This document shows, piece after piece, positions 18,529 through 48,809 of a stretch of 64,000 nt of DNA. The notes under the pieces were generated by a model, which worked only from the letters and a program-made list of their open reading frames with translations, had not been told where the DNA came from and did no database searches. Source of the stretch: Cyanosarcina radialis HA8281-LM2 (GTDB taxonomy: Bacteria > Cyanobacteriota > Cyanobacteriia > Cyanobacteriales > CCAP-1448); NCBI GenBank assembly GCA_019359615.1, contig JAHHHA010000013.1, positions 1 to 64,000 on the forward strand. Reading direction: 5' to 3'. How positions within the stretch are numbered: the stretch's first letter is position 1; each line of letters opens with the position of its first letter. The translations under genes and the position numbers were made by a program.

Positions 18529-19416
18529 CTAAATCTTCGATCTATTTCGCACTTTGTTAGCCGTTCTGAGAATTTGCCCCGCTAAAATAGCTGCTCCAAA
18601 TCCATTATCGATATTGACGACTCCCACGCCAGCGGCACAAGAATTGAGCATGGTTAACAACGGAGCCAAACCACCAAAACTAGCCCCGTAGCCGACGCTA
18701 GTGGGAACGGCTATAGTCGGACAATCTGCCAGTCCGGCCACGACGCTAGGCAAAGCGCCCTCCATCCCAGCCACGACGATTAAAACATCAGATTCGCTCA
18801 AAAGTTGGCGGTGACTGAGCAACCGATGGATGCCAGCTACGCCAACATCCCAAAGACGTTGCACTTGAAAGCCGCAGAGTTCAGCCGTGACAGCGGCTTC
18901 TTCTGCTACTGGCAAATCGGCCGTGCCAGCCGAGATAATGCCAATAGTTCCAGGTTGGGGAGATGGGAGAGAGGGGGTGAGGGGATGAGGGGGTGAGGGG
19001 GCGATTGTCTCTGACTTCTGTACGGGCGCAATGCTTTGCGCCCCTACTTCTGAACTTCTGAACTCCTGAACTTCTGAACTCCTGATTAGGGCACAAATTC
19101 TAGCCATGGGGTAATAGTGGAGGCTGGGAATTTGGACTTGCAGTTGGGCATAAACTTCAGGGGTAATTCTAGTTGCCATTACTACCGGGTGGCGATCGCG
19201 CATTGCCTGCATAATTTGAAGTATCTGGTCGGGAGTTTTATCAGCCCCCCAAATTACCTCTGGAAAGCCAGTTCTCAGCGAGCGGTGATGGTCGATGCGG
19301 GCAAAATCGCCAACTGGTTCAAAGTCGAAATGCTTGAGTTTCTCTAAAGCGGTTTCAGGGCTGACTTCACCTGCTGCCACTGCTTCGAGCAAAAATTGTA
19401 AGCCTTCTTGGGTCAT
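18529..19416 (-). CDS. larB: LarB, nickel-pincer cofactor synthesis carboxylase/hydrolase, with repeat-derived insert
   Basis: This 295-residue protein matches LarB (PurE/AIR-carboxylase-like): FDFEPVGDFARIDHHRSLRTGFPEVIWG near the N-terminus, GIISAGTADLPVAEEAAVTAE, VAGMEGALPSVVAGL, and VPTSVGYGASFGGLAPLLTMLNS. LarB carboxylates and hydrolyses nicotinic acid adenine dinucleotide in the first step of nickel-pincer nucleotide synthesis. Residues about 109-154 (IRSSEVQEFRSSEVGAQ to LPSPQPG) are not LarB sequence. They translate the intergenic repeats at 18955-19090, inserted before the GIISAGT core. larC and larE are not in the window. Confidence 0.9.
   Translation of the reverse strand: MTQEGLQFLLEAVAAGEVSPETALEKLKHFDFEPVGDFARIDHHRSLRTGFPEVIWGADKTPDQILQIMQAMRDRHPVVMATRITPEVYAQLQVQIPSLHYYPMARICALIRSSEVQEFRSSEVGAQSIAPVQKSETIAPSPPHPLTPSLPSPQPGTIGIISAGTADLPVAEEAAVTAELCGFQVQRLWDVGVAGIHRLLSHRQLLSESDVLIVVAGMEGALPSVVAGLADCPTIAVPTSVGYGASFGGLAPLLTMLNSCAAGVGVVNIDNGFGAAILAGQILRTANKVRNRSKI
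18955..19092 (-). repeat. In-frame composite repeat inside larB
   Basis: On the plus strand this reads GGGGAGATGGGAGAGAGGGG, GTGAGGGGATGAGGGGGTGA, a GGGCGCAATGCTTTGCGCCC palindrome, then four CTTCTGAACTCCTGAA units. All are intergenic families of this genome. In the gene's frame (minus strand) they are free of stops. Confidence 0.78.
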
Positions 19417-19469
19417 TGGTTAGTAAATGTAAGAGAACTCTTTTATCAAATCCGATCGATCGACCATAA

Positions 19470-35177: not shown

Positions 35178-35531
35178 CCGCGTCAAAAGTTTTAGGGGCG
35201 CAAGGCCTTCATGCGCGTCAACTTAACGGTCAAAATCACGAGCCGCCAGGGGTTCAAAACCCCTGTCTCACAGCTAAAGTCCTCTAAAGAGGACTGGCCG
35301 ATCGATCTCTGGGTAATTTCGTTCCTTAGTCCATTTCAATGGACTTGCGCTATTAGCCAGGGGTTTTGAACCCCTGGCGGAGATGGCTAAAATTCATGGT
35401 CTAGCAGCGGCTTTAGCTCTAAATTGACACCAATGCAACACATTGCGCTCCTAACACCACCTACGGTCATCTGTGACATCCTTTTTTCAAATTCATATAA
35501 CTTTCTAAACTTCTAAACTCCTAAACTTCTT
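35178..35531. repeat. Intergenic repeat element with AGGGGTTCAAAACCCCT ends and CTAAAGTCCTCTAAAGAGGACT core
   Basis: This 354-bp gap sits within the chemosensory operon. It contains hairpins at 35246-35265 (CCAGGGGTTCAAAACCCCTG), 35278-35295 (AGTCCTCTAAAGAGGACT), about 35318-35346 (AGTCCATTTCAATGGACT) and 35356-35378 (GCCAGGGGTTTTGAACCCCTGGC). A related copy without the right half lies at about 43040-43120. CTTCTAAACTCC strings end the gap before the CheA start. It resembles a small non-autonomous mobile element. Confidence 0.7.
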
Positions 35532-38500
35532 ATGGCACACGATACCGAACAGGAAGTAAAACTTTATTTTTTAGTAGAAGCTCAAGAATACCTCGACAAG
35601 CTTGAATCGGGGTTAATCGGGCTAGGAACTGGCAAAAGCGTTGGCGCTAGCCTGTGCGTTAGCACGTATCGCCAGGAAATGGACGCTCTGTTGCGTTCTG
35701 CCCACTCCATCAAAGGCGGCGCGGCGATGATGGGCTTCGATACCCTTGCTCGCTTAGGTCATCCCCTAGAAGATTTCTTTAAAATTCTCAAACTGGGTAA
35801 AAACCCAGAAGCGGTAAACGAGGAAGTAGAACAACTGTTGCTTTCAGCAGTCGATCGCTTGCGTCAAATAGCTACTCTCAACCGTCAAGGTAAAGATGTC
35901 GATGAAGCTTGGCTGGCAGCGAACGCTCATCCGATCTTCGAGAGACTGCGCCAGCGGTTGGGCGATTGGGAACCAGCAGATGACACCGTTCTCCTCTCAG
36001 AAGAAGCTGGGGAAGATATGGTAGTTTTACTGTTCGAGACGGAAGTAGAAGCTTGCATCCAGCGTTTGGAATCTGTTTTAGCTAACCCCGCCCGCCCTTG
36101 TTTGCGCGAAGAGTTTGAGATTGCGGCTCAAGAGTTGGGCGGCTTAGGAGAAATGCTCGAACTCACGGCATTTAGCAGCCTTTGCCAATCGGTAATCGAG
36201 CAATTAGGAGCTTATCCCGATCGAGAAGAAGCGATCGCGCGTTTAGCCGTTCAAGAGTGGCGGCGATCGCAAGCAATGGTCTATATCGGCCAAACAGCAG
36301 CACTTCCCAGCCAACTCAATCTGGTTAATTTGGCTCCTACAGAGACGGTCCAGCAGGCTATCCCACAAGACTATGGAAATGAGTCTGCTGGCTTAGATTT
36401 AGATTCTTTTGAAGTGCCATTAACTTCAGAAGAAGATTTTTCGATGCCGTTAGAAAGTTTCGAGCCTATTGGCTTAGAGCCAGAATCTCTCAATTTAAGC
36501 GCCGAAGAAGATCTCTCAGTACCACTAGACAGTTTCGAGACTGCCGATTTCGAGCTAGAAGCTCTCGATCCACACTTAACCACAGCAGATTTCGCCCAAG
36601 AAGCCCAGGAACTGTTCTCTTCTTTAGAAATTACTGCTCCCTCGCCCTCTTCGCCCTCCTCGCCCTCCTCGCCCTCCTCGCCCTCTCCCGTCAAAGAAAC
36701 CGCTGAAAACACGATTCGCGTCCCCGTGCGCCAACTCGATCGCCTTAACGATCTATTTGGAGAATTGACGATCGAACGCAACGGTTTAGATTTATACCTC
36801 AAACGCTTGGGCAACTTAATGGGGCTTTTGGGTCAAAGGGTGCAAGTGCTAGAAAAATCGAACTTCCACTTGCGAAGTGCCTACGATCGCGTGGCAACTG
36901 GAGTGCCAACTGCTCCCCTGGTGCCGCAATTAGCCTTAGTCGGAAACTTACTGAGCGATCGCCAAGATTTCGATGTCTTGGAAATGGATCGCTATAACGA
37001 CTTGCACCTAGTATCTCAGGAAATCATGGATACAGTCGTGCAGATTCAGGAAGTCACCACCGACTTGAAACTCGAATTGGAAGATACCGAACGTTTTGCC
37101 CGCGACATCAACCGCACCTCCAAACTGATGCAAAATAGCATCACTCAACTGCAAATGCGTCCGGTGGCCGATTTGCTGGGACGCTTTCCCAGGGCGTTAA
37201 GAGAGATGGAGTTGAAGTACGGCAAACAAGTAGAACTCAAAATCAGAGGCGGTTCTACCCTAATCGATCGCAGCATCTTGGAAGCTTTGAACGAACCCTT
37301 GCTGCACCTATTCCGCAACTGTTTCGATCACGGTATTGAAGAGCGAGCCACTCGCCAAGCCACTGGCAAACCAGCTACCGGAACCATTGAAATTAGTGCT
37401 GCCTATCGCGGCAACCAAACGGTAATCGTCATCAAAGATGATGGCGGCGGCATCAATCTCGACAAGATTCGCGCCAAAGCTTTGCAAATGGGCTTAAACG
37501 AAGCAGATTTGGCAGTAGCTACCAAACAAGATTTGCTCGATCTAATTTTTGAACCCGGTTTCAGCACCGCCGATCGAGTTACCGATCTTTCCGGGCGCGG
37601 GGTGGGAATGGATGTCGTGCGCACCAATCTGCGAGAAATTCGCGGCGATATTCGCGTCGATACCCAACCGGGCAAAGGCACTACCTTTACGATTTCTGTT
37701 CCCTTTACCCTATCGGTGGTGCGCGTGTTGTTAGTCGAAAGCGGCGGTTTGATGCTGGCTTTCCCCAACAGCGCCGTCGAAGAAATGCTTCGCCTAGATC
37801 CAGAAATGATTCTCTCGGCTGCTGGCAAAGAAGTCCTCAACTGGGAAGGATTTATGGTGCCGCTGATTCGCTTGCAGCAGTGCTTGCAATTCAACCGTTT
37901 TCGTCCCCAATTAGAGACAGAAATCATCCCCGCGATCGACGAACCGACGCTATTGATGGTGTCTCAAGGAGACGATCTAATCGGGATTCAAGTCGATCGC
38001 TACTGGGGAGAACAAGAAGTCACCATCAGGCAAGTAGAAGGCAACCTACCCATGCCCGCTGGCTTTAGCGGCTGTACGATTTTAGGCGACGGTCGAGTCG
38101 TACCCTTAGTGGATGCGATCGCTTTGTTGGAATGGATCGATCGCGATCGTCCCCAAGCCCTCAGTCAGTCAATTCGGGAAAAACTCGATACCGATTCCCC
38201 AGGACAACTACCATCTACACCTGTAGCCGCCCAGCAGAAAAATCGGATTTTGGTAGTCGATGACTCGATTAACGTCCGTCGCTTCTTAGCCTTAACCCTA
38301 GAAAAAGCTGGCTATCGAGTCGAACAGGCCAAAGACGGGCAAGAGGCGTTAGAAAAATTGCAAGCAGGATTATCGCCGCAGGCAGTAATTAGCGATATTG
38401 AAATGCCCCGCCTTGACGGTTATGGCTTCTTAGCCCAAGTAAAATCCAATCCTGCCTGCCAGCACATTCCCATCCTCATGCTCACCTCTCGCAGCGGCGA

Positions 38501-38600
38501 CAAACACCGCCAGCTAGCGATGAATCTAGGTGCTACCGCCTACTTCTCCAAACCATTCAAAGAGCAGGAATTACTCAAAACCCTGCAACAACTGGTTTAG
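35532..38600 (+). CDS. CheA-type hybrid histidine kinase with C-terminal receiver (PixL/HmpE-like)
   Basis: This 1022-residue protein has an HPt domain (1-125) with phosphorylatable His in LLRSAHSIKGGAAMM (about residue 58), and a second HPt-like segment (about 165-260) without the His. A Ser/Pro linker (about 373-392) leads to the kinase dimer and ATPase part (N box LLHLFRNCFDHGIE, G1 KDDGGGI, G2 DLSGRGVGMDVV), a CheW-like domain (about 726-870) and a receiver (about 905-1022; Asp in ISDIEMP, Lys in SKPFKEQE). Residues 32-47 (GKSVGASLCVSTYR) are an insertion from a REP-like repeat in the HPt helix linker. It phosphorylates the PATAN-REC and CheY partners. Confidence 0.95.
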   Translation: MAHDTEQEVKLYFLVEAQEYLDKLESGLIGLGTGKSVGASLCVSTYRQEMDALLRSAHSIKGGAAMMGFDTLARLGHPLEDFFKILKLGKNPEAVNEEVEQLLLSAVDRLRQIATLNRQGKDVDEAWLAANAHPIFERLRQRLGDWEPADDTVLLSEEAGEDMVVLLFETEVEACIQRLESVLANPARPCLREEFEIAAQELGGLGEMLELTAFSSLCQSVIEQLGAYPDREEAIARLAVQEWRRSQAMVYIGQTAALPSQLNLVNLAPTETVQQAIPQDYGNESAGLDLDSFEVPLTSEEDFSMPLESFEPIGLEPESLNLSAEEDLSVPLDSFETADFELEALDPHLTTADFAQEAQELFSSLEITAPSPSSPSSPSSPSSPSPVKETAENTIRVPVRQLDRLNDLFGELTIERNGLDLYLKRLGNLMGLLGQRVQVLEKSNFHLRSAYDRVATGVPTAPLVPQLALVGNLLSDRQDFDVLEMDRYNDLHLVSQEIMDTVVQIQEVTTDLKLELEDTERFARDINRTSKLMQNSITQLQMRPVADLLGRFPRALREMELKYGKQVELKIRGGSTLIDRSILEALNEPLLHLFRNCFDHGIEERATRQATGKPATGTIEISAAYRGNQTVIVIKDDGGGINLDKIRAKALQMGLNEADLAVATKQDLLDLIFEPGFSTADRVTDLSGRGVGMDVVRTNLREIRGDIRVDTQPGKGTTFTISVPFTLSVVRVLLVESGGLMLAFPNSAVEEMLRLDPEMILSAAGKEVLNWEGFMVPLIRLQQCLQFNRFRPQLETEIIPAIDEPTLLMVSQGDDLIGIQVDRYWGEQEVTIRQVEGNLPMPAGFSGCTILGDGRVVPLVDAIALLEWIDRDRPQALSQSIREKLDTDSPGQLPSTPVAAQQKNRILVVDDSINVRRFLALTLEKAGYRVEQAKDGQEALEKLQAGLSPQAVISDIEMPRLDGYGFLAQVKSNPACQHIPILMLTSRSGDKHRQLAMNLGATAYFSKPFKEQELLKTLQQLV

Positions 38601-43287: not shown

Positions 43288-45390
43288 CTATGGTTCTAGC
43301 AGCGTCTCCACTTGGCCGTCTTTATAAAGTACCACTCGAATTTTGGCATTACCTTCCCCTTGCAAAGGAGAAACTAATTGTTCGCTACCCGGTTTGGGCA
43401 TTCCAGTACGTCCGATATAGTTGCCAGCCGCTGAGGTTAAAGGAATAATCCGTTCGACCGAGCCATTGTTATTAATTACCAAGGTGTATTCCAGCTTAGA
43501 TTGAGGCAGATCTGTAGGCGGTTTCCATCGCTCTTGGAAATAATTTCGGGCTTCCGTCACTTGAGGAATGCGATCGAACAATCTCTCTTGAGATGAAGGG
43601 TTATACGCCGTGTCTCCACTGCCAGAGTTGGGCGAGGGTAAAGAAAAACCACCTGCACTTGGGGGAGCTAATTGTGCTGCTCCATCTGATGAGGTTTTAG
43701 GCACTTCTAGAGAAGTAGCTGAAGGAGCAGTAGGGCTGGGAATAGTTTGAGGTAAAGGAGTAACGGGGCTTATCGCTCCGAGGTTAGGCGATGGTGCTGT
43801 TGCTCGATTGTTATCCTGCTCGTTAATTGCTGGCAAATTTAAAGGCGGAGCAGATGGAGTTAATAACGATTCCGGAGCCGCTGCGGTTGTCAGAGGTTCC
43901 GTTGGAGTGGGAGTTTGCGCAGCAGGCTTGTTATTTCTGGCTGTCTGGGAAGGCTTGTTATTTCTAGCTGTCTGGCGCTGGCGAGCGGAATTACGAGATC
44001 TTTGCGGCTGTTCCCCGCTGCTACCTGGGCTGGTGATGGGGAAAGAACTACTAGGCGCAAAGATCGAATCTGGCGTGTAAACGTCAGGAGCTAAAGCTAC
44101 ATTCGGTAGCGTATTGCGCGGTTGAGAATTGGGATTGGAGCGAGTTTTTCCAGTAGTTGAGGGCCGCCGATTTCTCGATTGCTGGGGTGAGGTGCGAGAA
44201 CCCGATGAGATCGATCGTCTGGGATCTATAGCCAGGGTGCGATCGCCAGGTGAGGAGGGAATTTGGAACGATCCTCCTGGAGAAAATAGTTCCGATTGAC
44301 CTCCCGGTGCTGGGTTAAACCTGCTTCCTGGCACATTAGCTCCTGGAGTCGTTCTTCTCAGATTGGGGGGTAGTTGAGAAACTACACCCGGATTGGTTGG
44401 GAAAGCAGATGTCCCCCCTGGAGCAGTCGGGAAAGCAGTTGGTCCGCCTGGATTAGTCGGGAAAGTCGAAGTTGCACCTGGAGCGGTAGGAAATGAAGTA
44501 CCTGTCCCTGGAATCGGCCCTGATGACGCTACTCCTCCGGGAATCACTGGTACTAGCGGGTTGCTTCCTGGTGGTACGGGAGCGGTTGGATCGGAGGCAG
44601 TTTCGGGCAAAGGATTATCTGCCAGCGGTGCTGGCGATGTCGCCGTAGAATCTGACTCTGGAGCCTGGGCCGTCGATTGAGAACTATTTGAGGAGTTCAC
44701 CAGTTTCATCATCGGTTGGATTTGGGTGGCTAATCCCACAGCCAGCAGAACTCCCGCTGCGGTAGCATAACCCCACAGAGGGATTTTGGCGAATTTTGAA
44801 GTGCGATCGCCACTCAGAGGGGGCAGCGCCACCATTTCCGTCGAGTATTCTTCTAAAGCTTGAGAGAGATCGAATAATTGCAAGGCGGTGAGGTTCACCG
44901 CTGGCCCCGATTCTCTGGTTTGCAGCGAGCCTAAAACTAGCTTGTGACTCACTAAACCTGCTGGTTCCAAATATGGGCTTAACTGCTGCGGTTGGAGGAG
45001 AGGAGATAAAGATGGTACTGGTGCGTTTGGTTCTTCCTCGTTGGCCTCTGCTGGGCGATTAGCCTTACCATTAACCAGCTTGGCTGCTGGTGGCGTATCG
45101 ACTATTCGATCGGATTTGCCCGCGATTAAATTTGTGGCTGGCGGTTGTTCTAAAAAATTTTGGATGTAAGTTTCAACAGCTTCGTTCAAGCTTTCTAGTT
45201 GAGAGCGATCGCCCCAAACGGTTACTTGGCGATCGTCTGGCTGCCTGGGGTCGTCAAAACTGAGTTTAAAGTTTAAATCTTGAAGTGCAGTTCGTCCCGC
45301 CCACCGAGACAGCATCGATTCTTTCCCTTTAATTTCTAGGGTACAAGTGGGAGGGGTGTATTTTCGCAAAACTGATTTAGATAAAGCCAT
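43288..45390 (-). CDS. DUF4335 family membrane protein with Pro/Gly/Ser-rich repeats
   Basis: This 700-residue protein begins MALSKSVLRKYTPPTCTLEI and has DDPRQPDDRQVTVWGDRSQLESL, the cyanobacterial DUF4335 domain (1-200). One membrane helix follows at about 204-222 (LWGYATAAGVLLAVGLATQ). A long disordered part contains FPTAPGGTSAFPTNPG-type repeats (about 280-340) and Ser/Asn/Arg-rich sequence. A C-terminal domain (about 610-700; YTLVINNNGSVERIIPLTSA, KIRVVLYKDGQVETLLEP) may bind an envelope partner. DUF3038 is upstream on the same strand, the usual pair. Function is unknown. Confidence 0.88.
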   Translation of the reverse strand: MALSKSVLRKYTPPTCTLEIKGKESMLSRWAGRTALQDLNFKLSFDDPRQPDDRQVTVWGDRSQLESLNEAVETYIQNFLEQPPATNLIAGKSDRIVDTPPAAKLVNGKANRPAEANEEEPNAPVPSLSPLLQPQQLSPYLEPAGLVSHKLVLGSLQTRESGPAVNLTALQLFDLSQALEEYSTEMVALPPLSGDRTSKFAKIPLWGYATAAGVLLAVGLATQIQPMMKLVNSSNSSQSTAQAPESDSTATSPAPLADNPLPETASDPTAPVPPGSNPLVPVIPGGVASSGPIPGTGTSFPTAPGATSTFPTNPGGPTAFPTAPGGTSAFPTNPGVVSQLPPNLRRTTPGANVPGSRFNPAPGGQSELFSPGGSFQIPSSPGDRTLAIDPRRSISSGSRTSPQQSRNRRPSTTGKTRSNPNSQPRNTLPNVALAPDVYTPDSIFAPSSSFPITSPGSSGEQPQRSRNSARQRQTARNNKPSQTARNNKPAAQTPTPTEPLTTAAAPESLLTPSAPPLNLPAINEQDNNRATAPSPNLGAISPVTPLPQTIPSPTAPSATSLEVPKTSSDGAAQLAPPSAGGFSLPSPNSGSGDTAYNPSSQERLFDRIPQVTEARNYFQERWKPPTDLPQSKLEYTLVINNNGSVERIIPLTSAAGNYIGRTGMPKPGSEQLVSPLQGEGNAKIRVVLYKDGQVETLLEP

Positions 45391-46247: not shown

Positions 46248-48809
46248 TTATTGAGTATAAGCAATAGTAACACCACTGCCACCATCCGATCGGTCAGCTA
46301 GCCGAAAATTTTTAATTTGGGGGTGTTTTTGTAATAATTCGTGAACTCCCTCGCGCAATCGCCCCGTACCTTTGCCGTGAATAATCCACAGCACTCCGGC
46401 ATCAGTCGATCGATTGATGGCGCTTTCTATCTTACTCTCGGCATCTGCTACCCGCATCCCCCGAATGTCGATCGTATTTTGCGAAGTTTGAATGGCAGGA
46501 GGGGAGGGGGTGATGGGGGGATGGGGGGATGGGGGGATGGGGCGAGCTTTTACTTCTCTCTCGTTCGGCACGGCTTTCTCGCCCTGAAGAGATTCGACAT
46601 CGGCCAGGGATACGGTCATTTTCATCAAGCCAAAGCGCACGGTTAATTCTCCGTCGTCGTTGGCGGCACTCAGGACTTCTGCGGTTTGTCCGAGTTTGGG
46701 AATTCTTACTCGCGCACCTACTTCTGGTTGGAATCCTTTTTTGGGCTGAGGTGGAGGTGTTACGGGCAGGCGGCGCTGGCCGATCTCGTTTAAGGCATCA
46801 GTAGCTTTTTGGGCATCTTGCGCCGTCATCGGTCCTTGCTGCAACTGGCGAATTACTTTGGCGATTTCGCTTTTAGCTCGAGCGATCGCTTCCATTACTG
46901 CCTGTTCCTGACGCTGTTTGAGTTCTCGCTCTCTAGCTTTTAAATCTGATGCTTGCCGCTCGACTTCTTCATGCAATTTTTCTGCCTGTTGGAGCAATTG
47001 GGCAGCTTCTCGCGCCTTGGTTTCCTGTTCGCGGCGCTGAGACTCTAAGCCAGAAATTACTTGGTTAATATCTTCGGCAGTCCCGCCGATTAAAGTTTGG
47101 GCAGTATCGACGACTGCCGATTTGAGTCCCAAGCGCCTAGCGACGCTCAAAGCGTTAGAACGCCCTGGAATGCCCCAGAGGATGCGGTAAGTGGGAGCAA
47201 GGCTAACATCGTCAAATTCTACGGCTGCATTTTCAAAGCGATCGTCTTCGTATTTGAGTGCCTTCAGTTCGCCGTAGTGAGTGGTAGCTACGGTAAGTCG
47301 GGCGCTATCTGCGAGGTGTTTTAATAGAGCGATCGCCAGGGCGCTGCCTTCGGCCGGATCGGTTCCCGCCCCTACTTCGTCGAGCAATATTAGGGAAGAT
47401 GGGGAGATGGGGAGATGGGGAGATGGGGAGATGGGGGGAGAATTTTGCTCTTCTGAATCCTCAACTTCACTTGCGGGCGTTGGCGCAGCCTGTGCCTTGC
47501 ACTTAGCATTTGGTGAAAAAGTTTCAAGTTCAACCGATATGTTATCGCCCAAATGCTTCGCCCCTACAATTTCGATCGCCTCGATAATTCGACTAATGCG
47601 GCGAATGTGACCGGAAAATGTCGATAGGTTTTGTTGCAGCGATTGTTCGTCGCCAATATCGGCTAATACCAGATCGAACCACGGCAATTCTACAGGCTCT
47701 CGCGCGGGAACGAATAAACCGACTTTGGCCATCAGGGTTGCTAAACCCAAGGTTTTGAGCGTTACTGTTTTGCCGCCAGTATTGGGGCCTGTAATCGTTA
47801 CTACCCGAATTTGGGGCGAAATTAACAAATTGACAGGTACTACTGCCGCGCCTTGTTCGTGAATTTGTTGCCACACTAACAGCGGATGGCGCAGTTGCCT
47901 GAGAGTAATTCTTTCGTTTTCTTGGGGGTCGATAAATCTGGGGGGATTGGCTTCTAACCACAAGCTGTAGCGTGCTCTGGCGGTTGCCAGATCTAAAGTA
48001 GTCGCTACTGCCAACAGTTGCTCTAAATCTGGCTTCACTTCTGCTACTCGATCGCTGAGGGCCTGGCGGATGGCTTCAGCTTCGATCTGTTCTTGGCGCT
48101 GGTATTGCCGCAGTTGATTCCCTAGAGAGGAGATGGCATAAGGCTCGACATACAGAGTTGCCCCGCTGCTAGAGGTATCGTGGACGATTCCAGGAATCGC
48201 GTCTTTGCGATCGGCTTTGATCGGAATGACGAAGCGATCGCCTCTTTGAGTAATGAGGGGTTGTTGGATGGCGCTAGATTGACGTTGCAAAATGCTTTGC
48301 AATGCTTGCTGTATTCTGTTTCGCACGTCTTTAAGCTGACTGCGAATCCCAGATAGTTTCGGACTAGCTCGATCTGCAACTTCACCGCTATCGTCGATCG
48401 AGTGGTGAATTTCTTGCTCTAGTTCGGGGTAAGTTCTGACGGTAGCGATTAAATCTAACAGCACTGGGCGATCGCTATGTTCGTCTATGGTGCGATTCAG
48501 CCGTCTCATGCCTGCTAGAGTGGTAGCGATCGCCAATAATTCTACTCCCGATAAGATGCCTTGAAGGACCGCCCTCTCTAAAGAGTCGCCGATATCTTCA
48601 ATGCCGTCAAACGATAAACCGCTCCTGAGAGAACTTTCTAGCTGGTAAACTGCTTGAGTTTGTTCTAGTAGTTCCACGCTTTCAGCTTGAGTGGTAGGAA
48701 TTGGCAGATGACGAGCAGCGATCGCGCCTAGTTTCGTGGCAGCAAAGGTAGCTAAATGCTGGCACAGGCGCGACCATTCTAATAGTTCTAGGGTTTCCGA
48801 TTGAATCAA
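46248..48809 (-). CDS. mutS2: MutS2 endonuclease/ATPase with two repeat-derived inserts
   Basis: This 853-residue protein has the MutS-type clamp and ATPase with Walker A TGPNTGGKTVTLKTLG (about 340) and Walker B LILLDEVGAGTDPAEGSAL (about 471), a coiled-coil region (about 560-640), a KOW-like segment, and a C-terminal Smr nuclease domain (about 775-853; IDIRGMRVADAES, IIHGKGTGRLREGV). MutS2 suppresses recombination and rescues collided ribosomes. Residues about 408-470 (LETFSPNAKCKAQAA to PISPSS) and about 752-772 (PIPPSPHPPITPSP) are translated intergenic repeats. The first lies between Walker A and B. The TTG start fits the family N-terminus. Confidence 0.94.
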   Translation of the reverse strand: MIQSETLELLEWSRLCQHLATFAATKLGAIAARHLPIPTTQAESVELLEQTQAVYQLESSLRSGLSFDGIEDIGDSLERAVLQGILSGVELLAIATTLAGMRRLNRTIDEHSDRPVLLDLIATVRTYPELEQEIHHSIDDSGEVADRASPKLSGIRSQLKDVRNRIQQALQSILQRQSSAIQQPLITQRGDRFVIPIKADRKDAIPGIVHDTSSSGATLYVEPYAISSLGNQLRQYQRQEQIEAEAIRQALSDRVAEVKPDLEQLLAVATTLDLATARARYSLWLEANPPRFIDPQENERITLRQLRHPLLVWQQIHEQGAAVVPVNLLISPQIRVVTITGPNTGGKTVTLKTLGLATLMAKVGLFVPAREPVELPWFDLVLADIGDEQSLQQNLSTFSGHIRRISRIIEAIEIVGAKHLGDNISVELETFSPNAKCKAQAAPTPASEVEDSEEQNSPPISPSPHLPISPSSLILLDEVGAGTDPAEGSALAIALLKHLADSARLTVATTHYGELKALKYEDDRFENAAVEFDDVSLAPTYRILWGIPGRSNALSVARRLGLKSAVVDTAQTLIGGTAEDINQVISGLESQRREQETKAREAAQLLQQAEKLHEEVERQASDLKARERELKQRQEQAVMEAIARAKSEIAKVIRQLQQGPMTAQDAQKATDALNEIGQRRLPVTPPPQPKKGFQPEVGARVRIPKLGQTAEVLSAANDDGELTVRFGLMKMTVSLADVESLQGEKAVPNEREVKARPIPPSPHPPITPSPPAIQTSQNTIDIRGMRVADAESKIESAINRSTDAGVLWIIHGKGTGRLREGVHELLQKHPQIKNFRLADRSDGGSGVTIAYTQ
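46498..46545 (-). repeat. In-frame GATGGGGG array in mutS2 before the Smr domain
   Basis: GGAGGGGAGGGGGTGATGGG followed by three GGGGGATG units encodes the Pro/Ser/Ile linker (about residues 752-772) on the minus strand. Confidence 0.75.
47396..47578 (-). repeat. In-frame composite repeat in mutS2 between Walker A and B
   Basis: AGATGGGGAGATGGGGAGAT units (about five, 47396-47440) are followed by CTTCTGAATCCTCAACTTCA and the REP-like GGCGTTGGCGCAGCCTGTGC. It is stop-free in the gene's frame and separates RRISRIIEAI from LILLDEVGAG. Confidence 0.78.

Follow-up and report, generated by a model that had tools for sequence, protein, structure and literature searches.

Rickettsia palindromic elements (RPEs) lie in frame within unrelated protein genes, and their presence is predicted to be compatible with protein fold and function (excerpts of PMC10969869). 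In cyanobacteria, the STRR heptamers GGGGA(C/T)T of Nostoc are 68% intergenic in PCC 7120 with a notable intragenic fraction, and lpxB is named in a legend among the repeat-associated genes (excerpts of PMC4692102). Amino-acid repeats of mammals and birds pile up in unstructured segments (excerpts of PMC2718493). Bacillus subtilis MutS2 is a ribosome-splitting ATPase whose Walker A and Walker B mutants cannot split disomes (excerpts of PMC10897456). The mutS2 gene analysed here comes from a window of 64,000 nucleotides of Cyanosarcina radialis HA8281-LM2, which is the whole stretch of DNA that was analysed. Its product has the same domain set as B. subtilis MutS2, but at the position of the window protein's insert the solved MutS2 structures (B. 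subtilis, T. maritima and T. thermophilus) are insert-free.

As with RPEs, a small palindromic repeat, dispersed in the genome, sits in frame in a conserved protein-coding gene. Unlike RPEs, the main load consists of simple octamer and heptamer arrays whose units differ between genomes, and a single orthologous loop has been the target time and again among cyanobacteria. By analogy, the MutS2 insert appears to work as RPEs do, a likeness of mode and not an assignment to that family. The tandem array resembles cyanobacterial STRRs in having G/C-rich, head-to-tail short units that occur genome-wide, but its unit is an octamer (TCCCCATC) and not a heptamer as in Nostoc; it works like an STRR and stands outside the heptamer family. 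Unlike the vertebrate amino-acid repeats, those of the window are dispersed and have unit lengths indivisible by three. Repeats in genes are already known; in the open-licence PMC literature searched, we found no description of a MutS2 insert of this kind or of the phylum-wide reuse of one ATPase loop. A text search found no "MutS" in the main text of PMC4692102, and the excerpts of PMC5101192 and PMC12292046 hold nothing on a MutS2 insert. We consider it very probable that the insert derives from repeats of the host genome that came to occupy, in frame, a MutS2 loop tolerant of extra length, and that it is translated.

The mutS2 gene and the anatomy of its insert

The gene (46248..48809, minus strand) is a single open frame that starts with TTG and runs for 853 codons; a frameshift, which the earlier note had allowed for, was rejected because this frame is uninterrupted. 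The product matches the NCBIfam equivalog HMM mutS2 (TIGR01069) over residues 4-851 with 889 bits against a cut-off of 400, which identifies it as MutS2, and Pfam recognises MutS_V, MSSS (MutS2 and Smr-associated SH3; residues 697-738, 46596..46721, minus strand) and Smr (residues 780-850, 46260..46472, minus strand). The MutS_V match falls into two stretches that flank the insert. An alignment of 59 proteins places the Walker A segment TGPNTGGKTVT at residues 340-350 (47760..47792), the STFSGHI motif at residues 396-402 (47604..47624) and the Walker B segment LILLDEVGAGTDP at residues 473-485 (47355..47393), all on the minus strand. Columns 340-348 (Walker A) and 396-399 (STFS) are invariant in all 59 MutS2 proteins, that of the window included, as are Walker B columns 475-485 except V479. 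The earlier note had described a MutS2 in which repeats make up an insert between the Walker A and B motifs, with the catalytic motifs present on both sides, a description that the profile match, the split MutS_V domain and the motifs TGPNTGGKT, STFSGH and LILLDEVGAGTDP uphold. The sole other MutS_V match in this genome, on contig 29, is MutS1 (761 bits, cut-off 641.7).

The insert follows the helix next to the STFS motif and precedes the Walker B strand. A length of about 63 residues had been claimed for it, which holds roughly for the whole segment between ...RIIEAI and LILLDE (about 60 residues); the part that is extra relative to the aligned family comprises 54 residues, between core residues 415 and 470 (residues 416-469, 47403..47564, minus strand). 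Read from the 5′ side of the gene, on the minus strand, it consists of a palindromic element (GTAGGGGC..AAGCATTTGG..CCAAATGCT; 47505..47569), a second small dispersed repeat joined to the right arm of the element (AAGTGCAAGGCACAGGCTGCGCCAACGCCC-like; 47475..47513), a spacer that by eye resembles the ACTTCTGA-type repeats of this genome (family D4; 47437..47474) and an octamer array of 5.5 copies at 97% (coding-strand unit CCCCATCT, translated PISPSPHLPISPS; 47393..47436). The palindromic element, which the earlier note had called a REP-like piece, has at least 10 other long copies in the genome (63-100 bases, 79-88% identity), a lower bound because only 40 of the 116 candidates were scored; one of these 10 falls in a long, peptide synthetase-like ORF, inside an AMP-binding domain. 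The AAGTGCAAGGCACAGGCTGCGCCAACGCCC-like part alone matched at 14 separate places, over 23-46 bases each. A second insert ahead of Smr, also proposed earlier, proved real: an array of GGGGATGG (46501..46542, minus strand) occupies the linker before Smr at about residues 757-770, which is the second-ranking insertion site of the family.

The repeat origin of the insert exceeds chance. A two-unit octamer pattern gave 18 overlapping matches in the window compared with none in 100 shuffles, and the three-unit pattern of TCCCCATC gave 633 overlapping matches in the genome (both strands) compared with none for the pattern read backwards, in agreement with the earlier claim that the insert is made of repeats. 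For three units, three-unit exact overlapping matches were counted in seven genomes, with both strands summed and the array of MutS2 itself included. The unit TCCCCATC of the window MutS2 insert, with its 633 matches at home, had 0-3 in each of the other six genomes; GGAGCAGA, from the MutS2 insert of G032, had 95 there and 0-19 in the other six, and CCCAATC, from that of G012, had 203 there and 0-18 in the other six. In each of these three source genomes, the unit found in its own MutS2 was by far the commonest of the three tested. The window insert also has a G4 motif on the template (plus) strand (47401-47428), and such motifs, on either strand, occur in 19 of 43 long inserts vs 5 of 43 for the remainder of the same genes; heptamers related to the octamer form G4 in vitro (excerpts of PMC4692102).

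Recurrence of the insertion site across cyanobacterial MutS2

MutS2 loci were collected from 56 of 60 genomes (G011, G027, G030 and G048 gave fragments or no clear MutS2 match and were excluded) and from 70 named loci, with one genome sampled per species. After removal of L002 and L003 (the gene that L004 also represents), L103 (Chloroflexota), three identical proteins and seven short frames, 116 full-length MutS2 were aligned, which are distinct proteins though not certainly distinct species and include one labelled as a Tatlockia MAG (L059). Loop lengths refer to 114 of them, as L018 and L046 lack exact anchors, although L046 does have a long insert. Among 22 insertion places between well-filled columns, the site between the STFS helix and Walker B holds 54.6% of all internally inserted residues, and 54% when the window protein is left out (115 proteins); the linker before Smr holds 16.3% and a loop near residue 296 holds 11.1%. 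This third insertion-prone place (residues 295-300, window positions 47910-47927) has 58 residues in G055, and the MutS2 matches of G002 and G033 have gaps of about 36 and 33 codons near it.

The loop between the STFS helix and Walker B is five residues long in 21 of the 114 proteins and at least 20 residues long in 43, reaching 86. Tandem arrays (TRF score 30 or more) are present in 30 of these 43 long inserts and make up 36% of insert bases vs 1.5% of the rest of those genes; the 13 long inserts without an array by this threshold may be decayed repeats or have another origin. On a FastTree tree of the core columns of the 114 proteins, with direction unpolarised, the state of having at least 20 residues changed at least 19 times and that of having at least 10 residues at least 15 times. 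Inheritance of the insert as one conserved block was rejected, since the sequences look unrelated between lineages, and some sister proteins do share an insert. The earlier note had seemed to imply a singular event and had considered that it might be found, conserved, in all relatives; neither describes the family, in which loop length varies, different lineages have unrelated inserts and the 21 proteins with a five-residue loop do without. On these alignments, the loop between the STFS helix and Walker B is a recurrent target of repeats. Outside the cyanobacteria, the comparison covers the three solved MutS2 and one Chloroflexota locus, which has 24 residues from STFS to LDE. Insert length was weakly related to genome size (Spearman 0.26, p 0.06, 51 loci); inserts of at least 20 aa occur at 3 of 21 loci from genomes below 5 Mb vs 14 of 30 above (Fisher p 0.019, not corrected for kinship).

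The paralogue MutS1, labelled by its profile score in the window genome and elsewhere as the far stronger MutS_V match, served as a control. Its MutS_V match spans exactly 564 nt in 43 of 45 genomes, and the two exceptions are incomplete (two overlapping pieces in G011, and a match lying on two contigs in G022). A comparable insert in MutS1 was rejected, given that there is no net length change over MutS_V in these 43 genomes. Among the 43 genomes in which MutS2 is matched, 13 have its MutS_V match interrupted by the insert and so divided into two pieces. One ATPase loop, invaded many times by the repeats of each genome, and a length-constant paralogue to set beside it amount to a countable natural experiment on the tolerance of protein loops for foreign sequence.

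Selection, predicted structure and competing explanations

Selection on the inserts is relaxed. In 12 non-overlapping pairs of sister proteins, each protein with a long insert (494 insert codons), pooled pN/pS was 0.61 for the inserts compared with 0.104 for the rest of MutS2, so that the inserts evolve roughly sixfold more loosely, a rough figure because some insert pairs look non-homologous. A value below 1 means that some constraint remains, or noise from non-homologous alignment. Insert length differs in 8 of the 12 pairs, and the fraction of hydrophobic residues is 0.17 in the inserts, vs a comparison value of 0.30, and is lower in 41 of the 43 long inserts.

These data bear on whether the extended loop has a selected function, for instance as a flexible tether or a regulatory contact, for which the repeats would be raw material. 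Such a function would fit the recurrence of the site with its 19 or more state changes, the insert pN/pS below 1 and the persistence in sisters of long inserts that have no array (86 aa each in L065 and L076; 77 and 81 aa in L072 and L073). It is nevertheless unlikely, given that the 21 proteins with five residues manage without, that close relatives differ in both sequence and length (L075 and L040 are 96% identical in the core and have inserts of 22 and 46 aa) and that the same repeat stands at insertion-prone sites of unrelated enzymes, as described below.

In the AlphaFold2 prediction of the window MutS2, block means of pLDDT over residues 421-470 are 49, 32, 36, 37 and 54, with values below 50 at residues 425-442 and 444-464, flanked by a helix (394-424) and a strand (472-476). 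Values below 50 also occur at 390-393, 531-552 and 577-582, some in or near the ATPase part, so low confidence alone is no distinguishing mark of the insert. The Hormoscilla MutS2 L058, with a five-residue loop, is predicted to have the corresponding helix at 391-411 and strand at 417-420; the helix of the window protein is about 13 residues longer, with falling confidence. The best fold matches of the window protein are MutS2 structures. The insert is predicted to be disordered beside intact ATPase motifs, which fits the extruded loop imagined in the earlier note: a low-confidence segment leads from the helix to the Walker B strand, which the insert-free relative joins with five residues.

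Under the preferred reading, that of translated host repeats in a tolerant loop, octamer and heptamer arrays and small palindromic elements are spread through these genomes, and copies in genes would persist only where the frame is kept, no stop codon arises and the loop tolerates length. The MutS2 loop between the STFS helix and the Walker B strand is very probably one such place, entered repeatedly and then refilled and resized fast, with the insert extruding as a disordered segment beside an intact-looking ATPase; some arrays could stem from slippage within the gene. We infer that insert-bearing MutS2 is made and active and that the loop is exposed, and the manner in which the repeats move is likewise deduced. 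On these terms, the locus indicates how repeats may lodge within apparently intact enzymes.

A unit length of 8, which is not divisible by 3, could also act as a slipped-strand switch, in which MutS2 is silenced by the frameshift that one octamer more or fewer brings. Units of 7 or 8 bases make up many of the arrays in other inserts, and we computed that loss of one unit in the window gene would end the frame after 498 residues and gain of one after 475, with Walker B out of frame in both cases. We regard such a switch as very unlikely, since no off-allele from array slippage was seen among the loci examined, with one genome per species, and the short frames have other features. A transposase ORF splits the one gene to which both L012 and L130 correspond; the frame of L095 fails within Walker A; L033, L087 and L090 reach a contig end or come within a few bases of it; and L102 breaks at Walker B, next to unrelated upstream DNA on a low-coverage MAG contig, which points to a chimera or rearrangement and not to slippage. 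The broader proposal that 7- and 8-base arrays make MutS2 a slipped-strand contingency gene in many cyanobacteria we hold to be just as remote; if true, the repeat load of a genome would toggle an enzyme that restrains recombination or rescues ribosomes.

Several of these broken loci have features of their own. In L130 (G047:C6:4653792-4657942), the interrupting ORF, 464 aa long and with a DDE transposase domain (PF01609), follows about codon 547 of the MutS2 frame. The Walker A break of L095 (Nostoc sp. XA010) reads ITGQILAVKL, where a sequencing error is possible. L102, on a Leptolyngbya sp. RL_3_1 MAG contig, encodes MutS2 only from Walker B onward, from about base 210, so that in this chimeric contig or rearrangement the breakpoint falls at the same MutS2 loop.

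That the insert is absent from the protein (as an intron, an intein or by ribosomal bypass), or that the gene is dead, is scarcely credible. In favour of these readings, the insert does separate the two parts of a catalytic domain, and folding of its first 97 bases is slightly stronger than that of shuffled sequences (z -1.92; matched by 4 of 200). Against them, Rfam gave no match at E up to 1 within 47000-48000, on which ground an RNA element or intron was rejected, and Pfam, up to E 0.001, showed no intein domain in the window MutS2, so that neither a splicing domain nor an RNA family was found. Moreover, all 43 long inserts are in frame (in a set built from open frames) and the rest of the MutS2 family is strongly conserved.

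Repeat arrays in other proteins

From the first contigs listed, and not at random, 39 octamer arrays were sampled. Twelve of them fall within frames that reach 300 aa or more, ten at internal positions. The ten proteins are a penicillin-binding protein 1C, three histidine kinases, UvrC, an LpxB-like protein, an M16 peptidase, LigA, a dihydroorotase and an apolipoprotein N-acyltransferase. LigA, UvrC, dihydroorotase and the LpxB-like protein were picked as probable single-copy enzymes, and orthologue sets were formed from the best-matching loci, at most 30 each of the 38-39 genomes with a match (30 LigA, 29 UvrC, 30 dihydroorotase and 30 LpxB-like proteins, with that of the window genome included). 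For all four, the array of the window genome falls at the first-ranking insertion site of the orthologues from the other genomes among these best-matching loci; counting MutS2, the array is at the top insertion site in five of five proteins, the four others having been chosen. Inserts of at least 10 residues occur there in 3 of 29 other LigA and 6 of 28 other UvrC proteins, and inserts of at least 8 residues in 8 of 29 other dihydroorotases and 5 of 29 other LpxB-like proteins, again among the best-matching loci. Because these orthologue inserts are few and mostly short, the coincidence of sites in the four proteins is weaker evidence than that from MutS2. Together, the data suggest that cyanobacterial short tandem repeats are translated parts of housekeeping enzymes (MutS2, UvrC, LigA and dihydroorotase), which matters for gene calling and structure prediction and bears on the persistence within genes of repeats whose unit length is indivisible by three.

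In G002 and G033, LigA and UvrC have other repetitive peptides at the array site, which are PPLTPPCQGG-like in LigA and of the type PPLTKGG or PLEKGG with QELSQS in UvrC (L221, L234, L252 and L255). The MutS2 insert of Zarconia navalis (L046) contains the repeat peptide PPLTPPERGTR, and judging from their sequences the peptides of L046 MutS2 and of LigA and UvrC in G002 and G033 suggest another translated repeat family.

Elsewhere in the window, an ORF with an AIRC domain (18532-19419, minus strand) has an array-derived Pro/Ser stretch directly ahead of the domain, and a nonamer array of CCTCGCCCT (36640-36685, plus strand), within the ORF 35517-38597, gives the linker of a CheA-like hybrid kinase its Pro/Ser stretch. 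In the gene for a DUF4335 protein (43288-45390, minus strand), tandem repeats of 27 and 30 bases lie away from the named domain.
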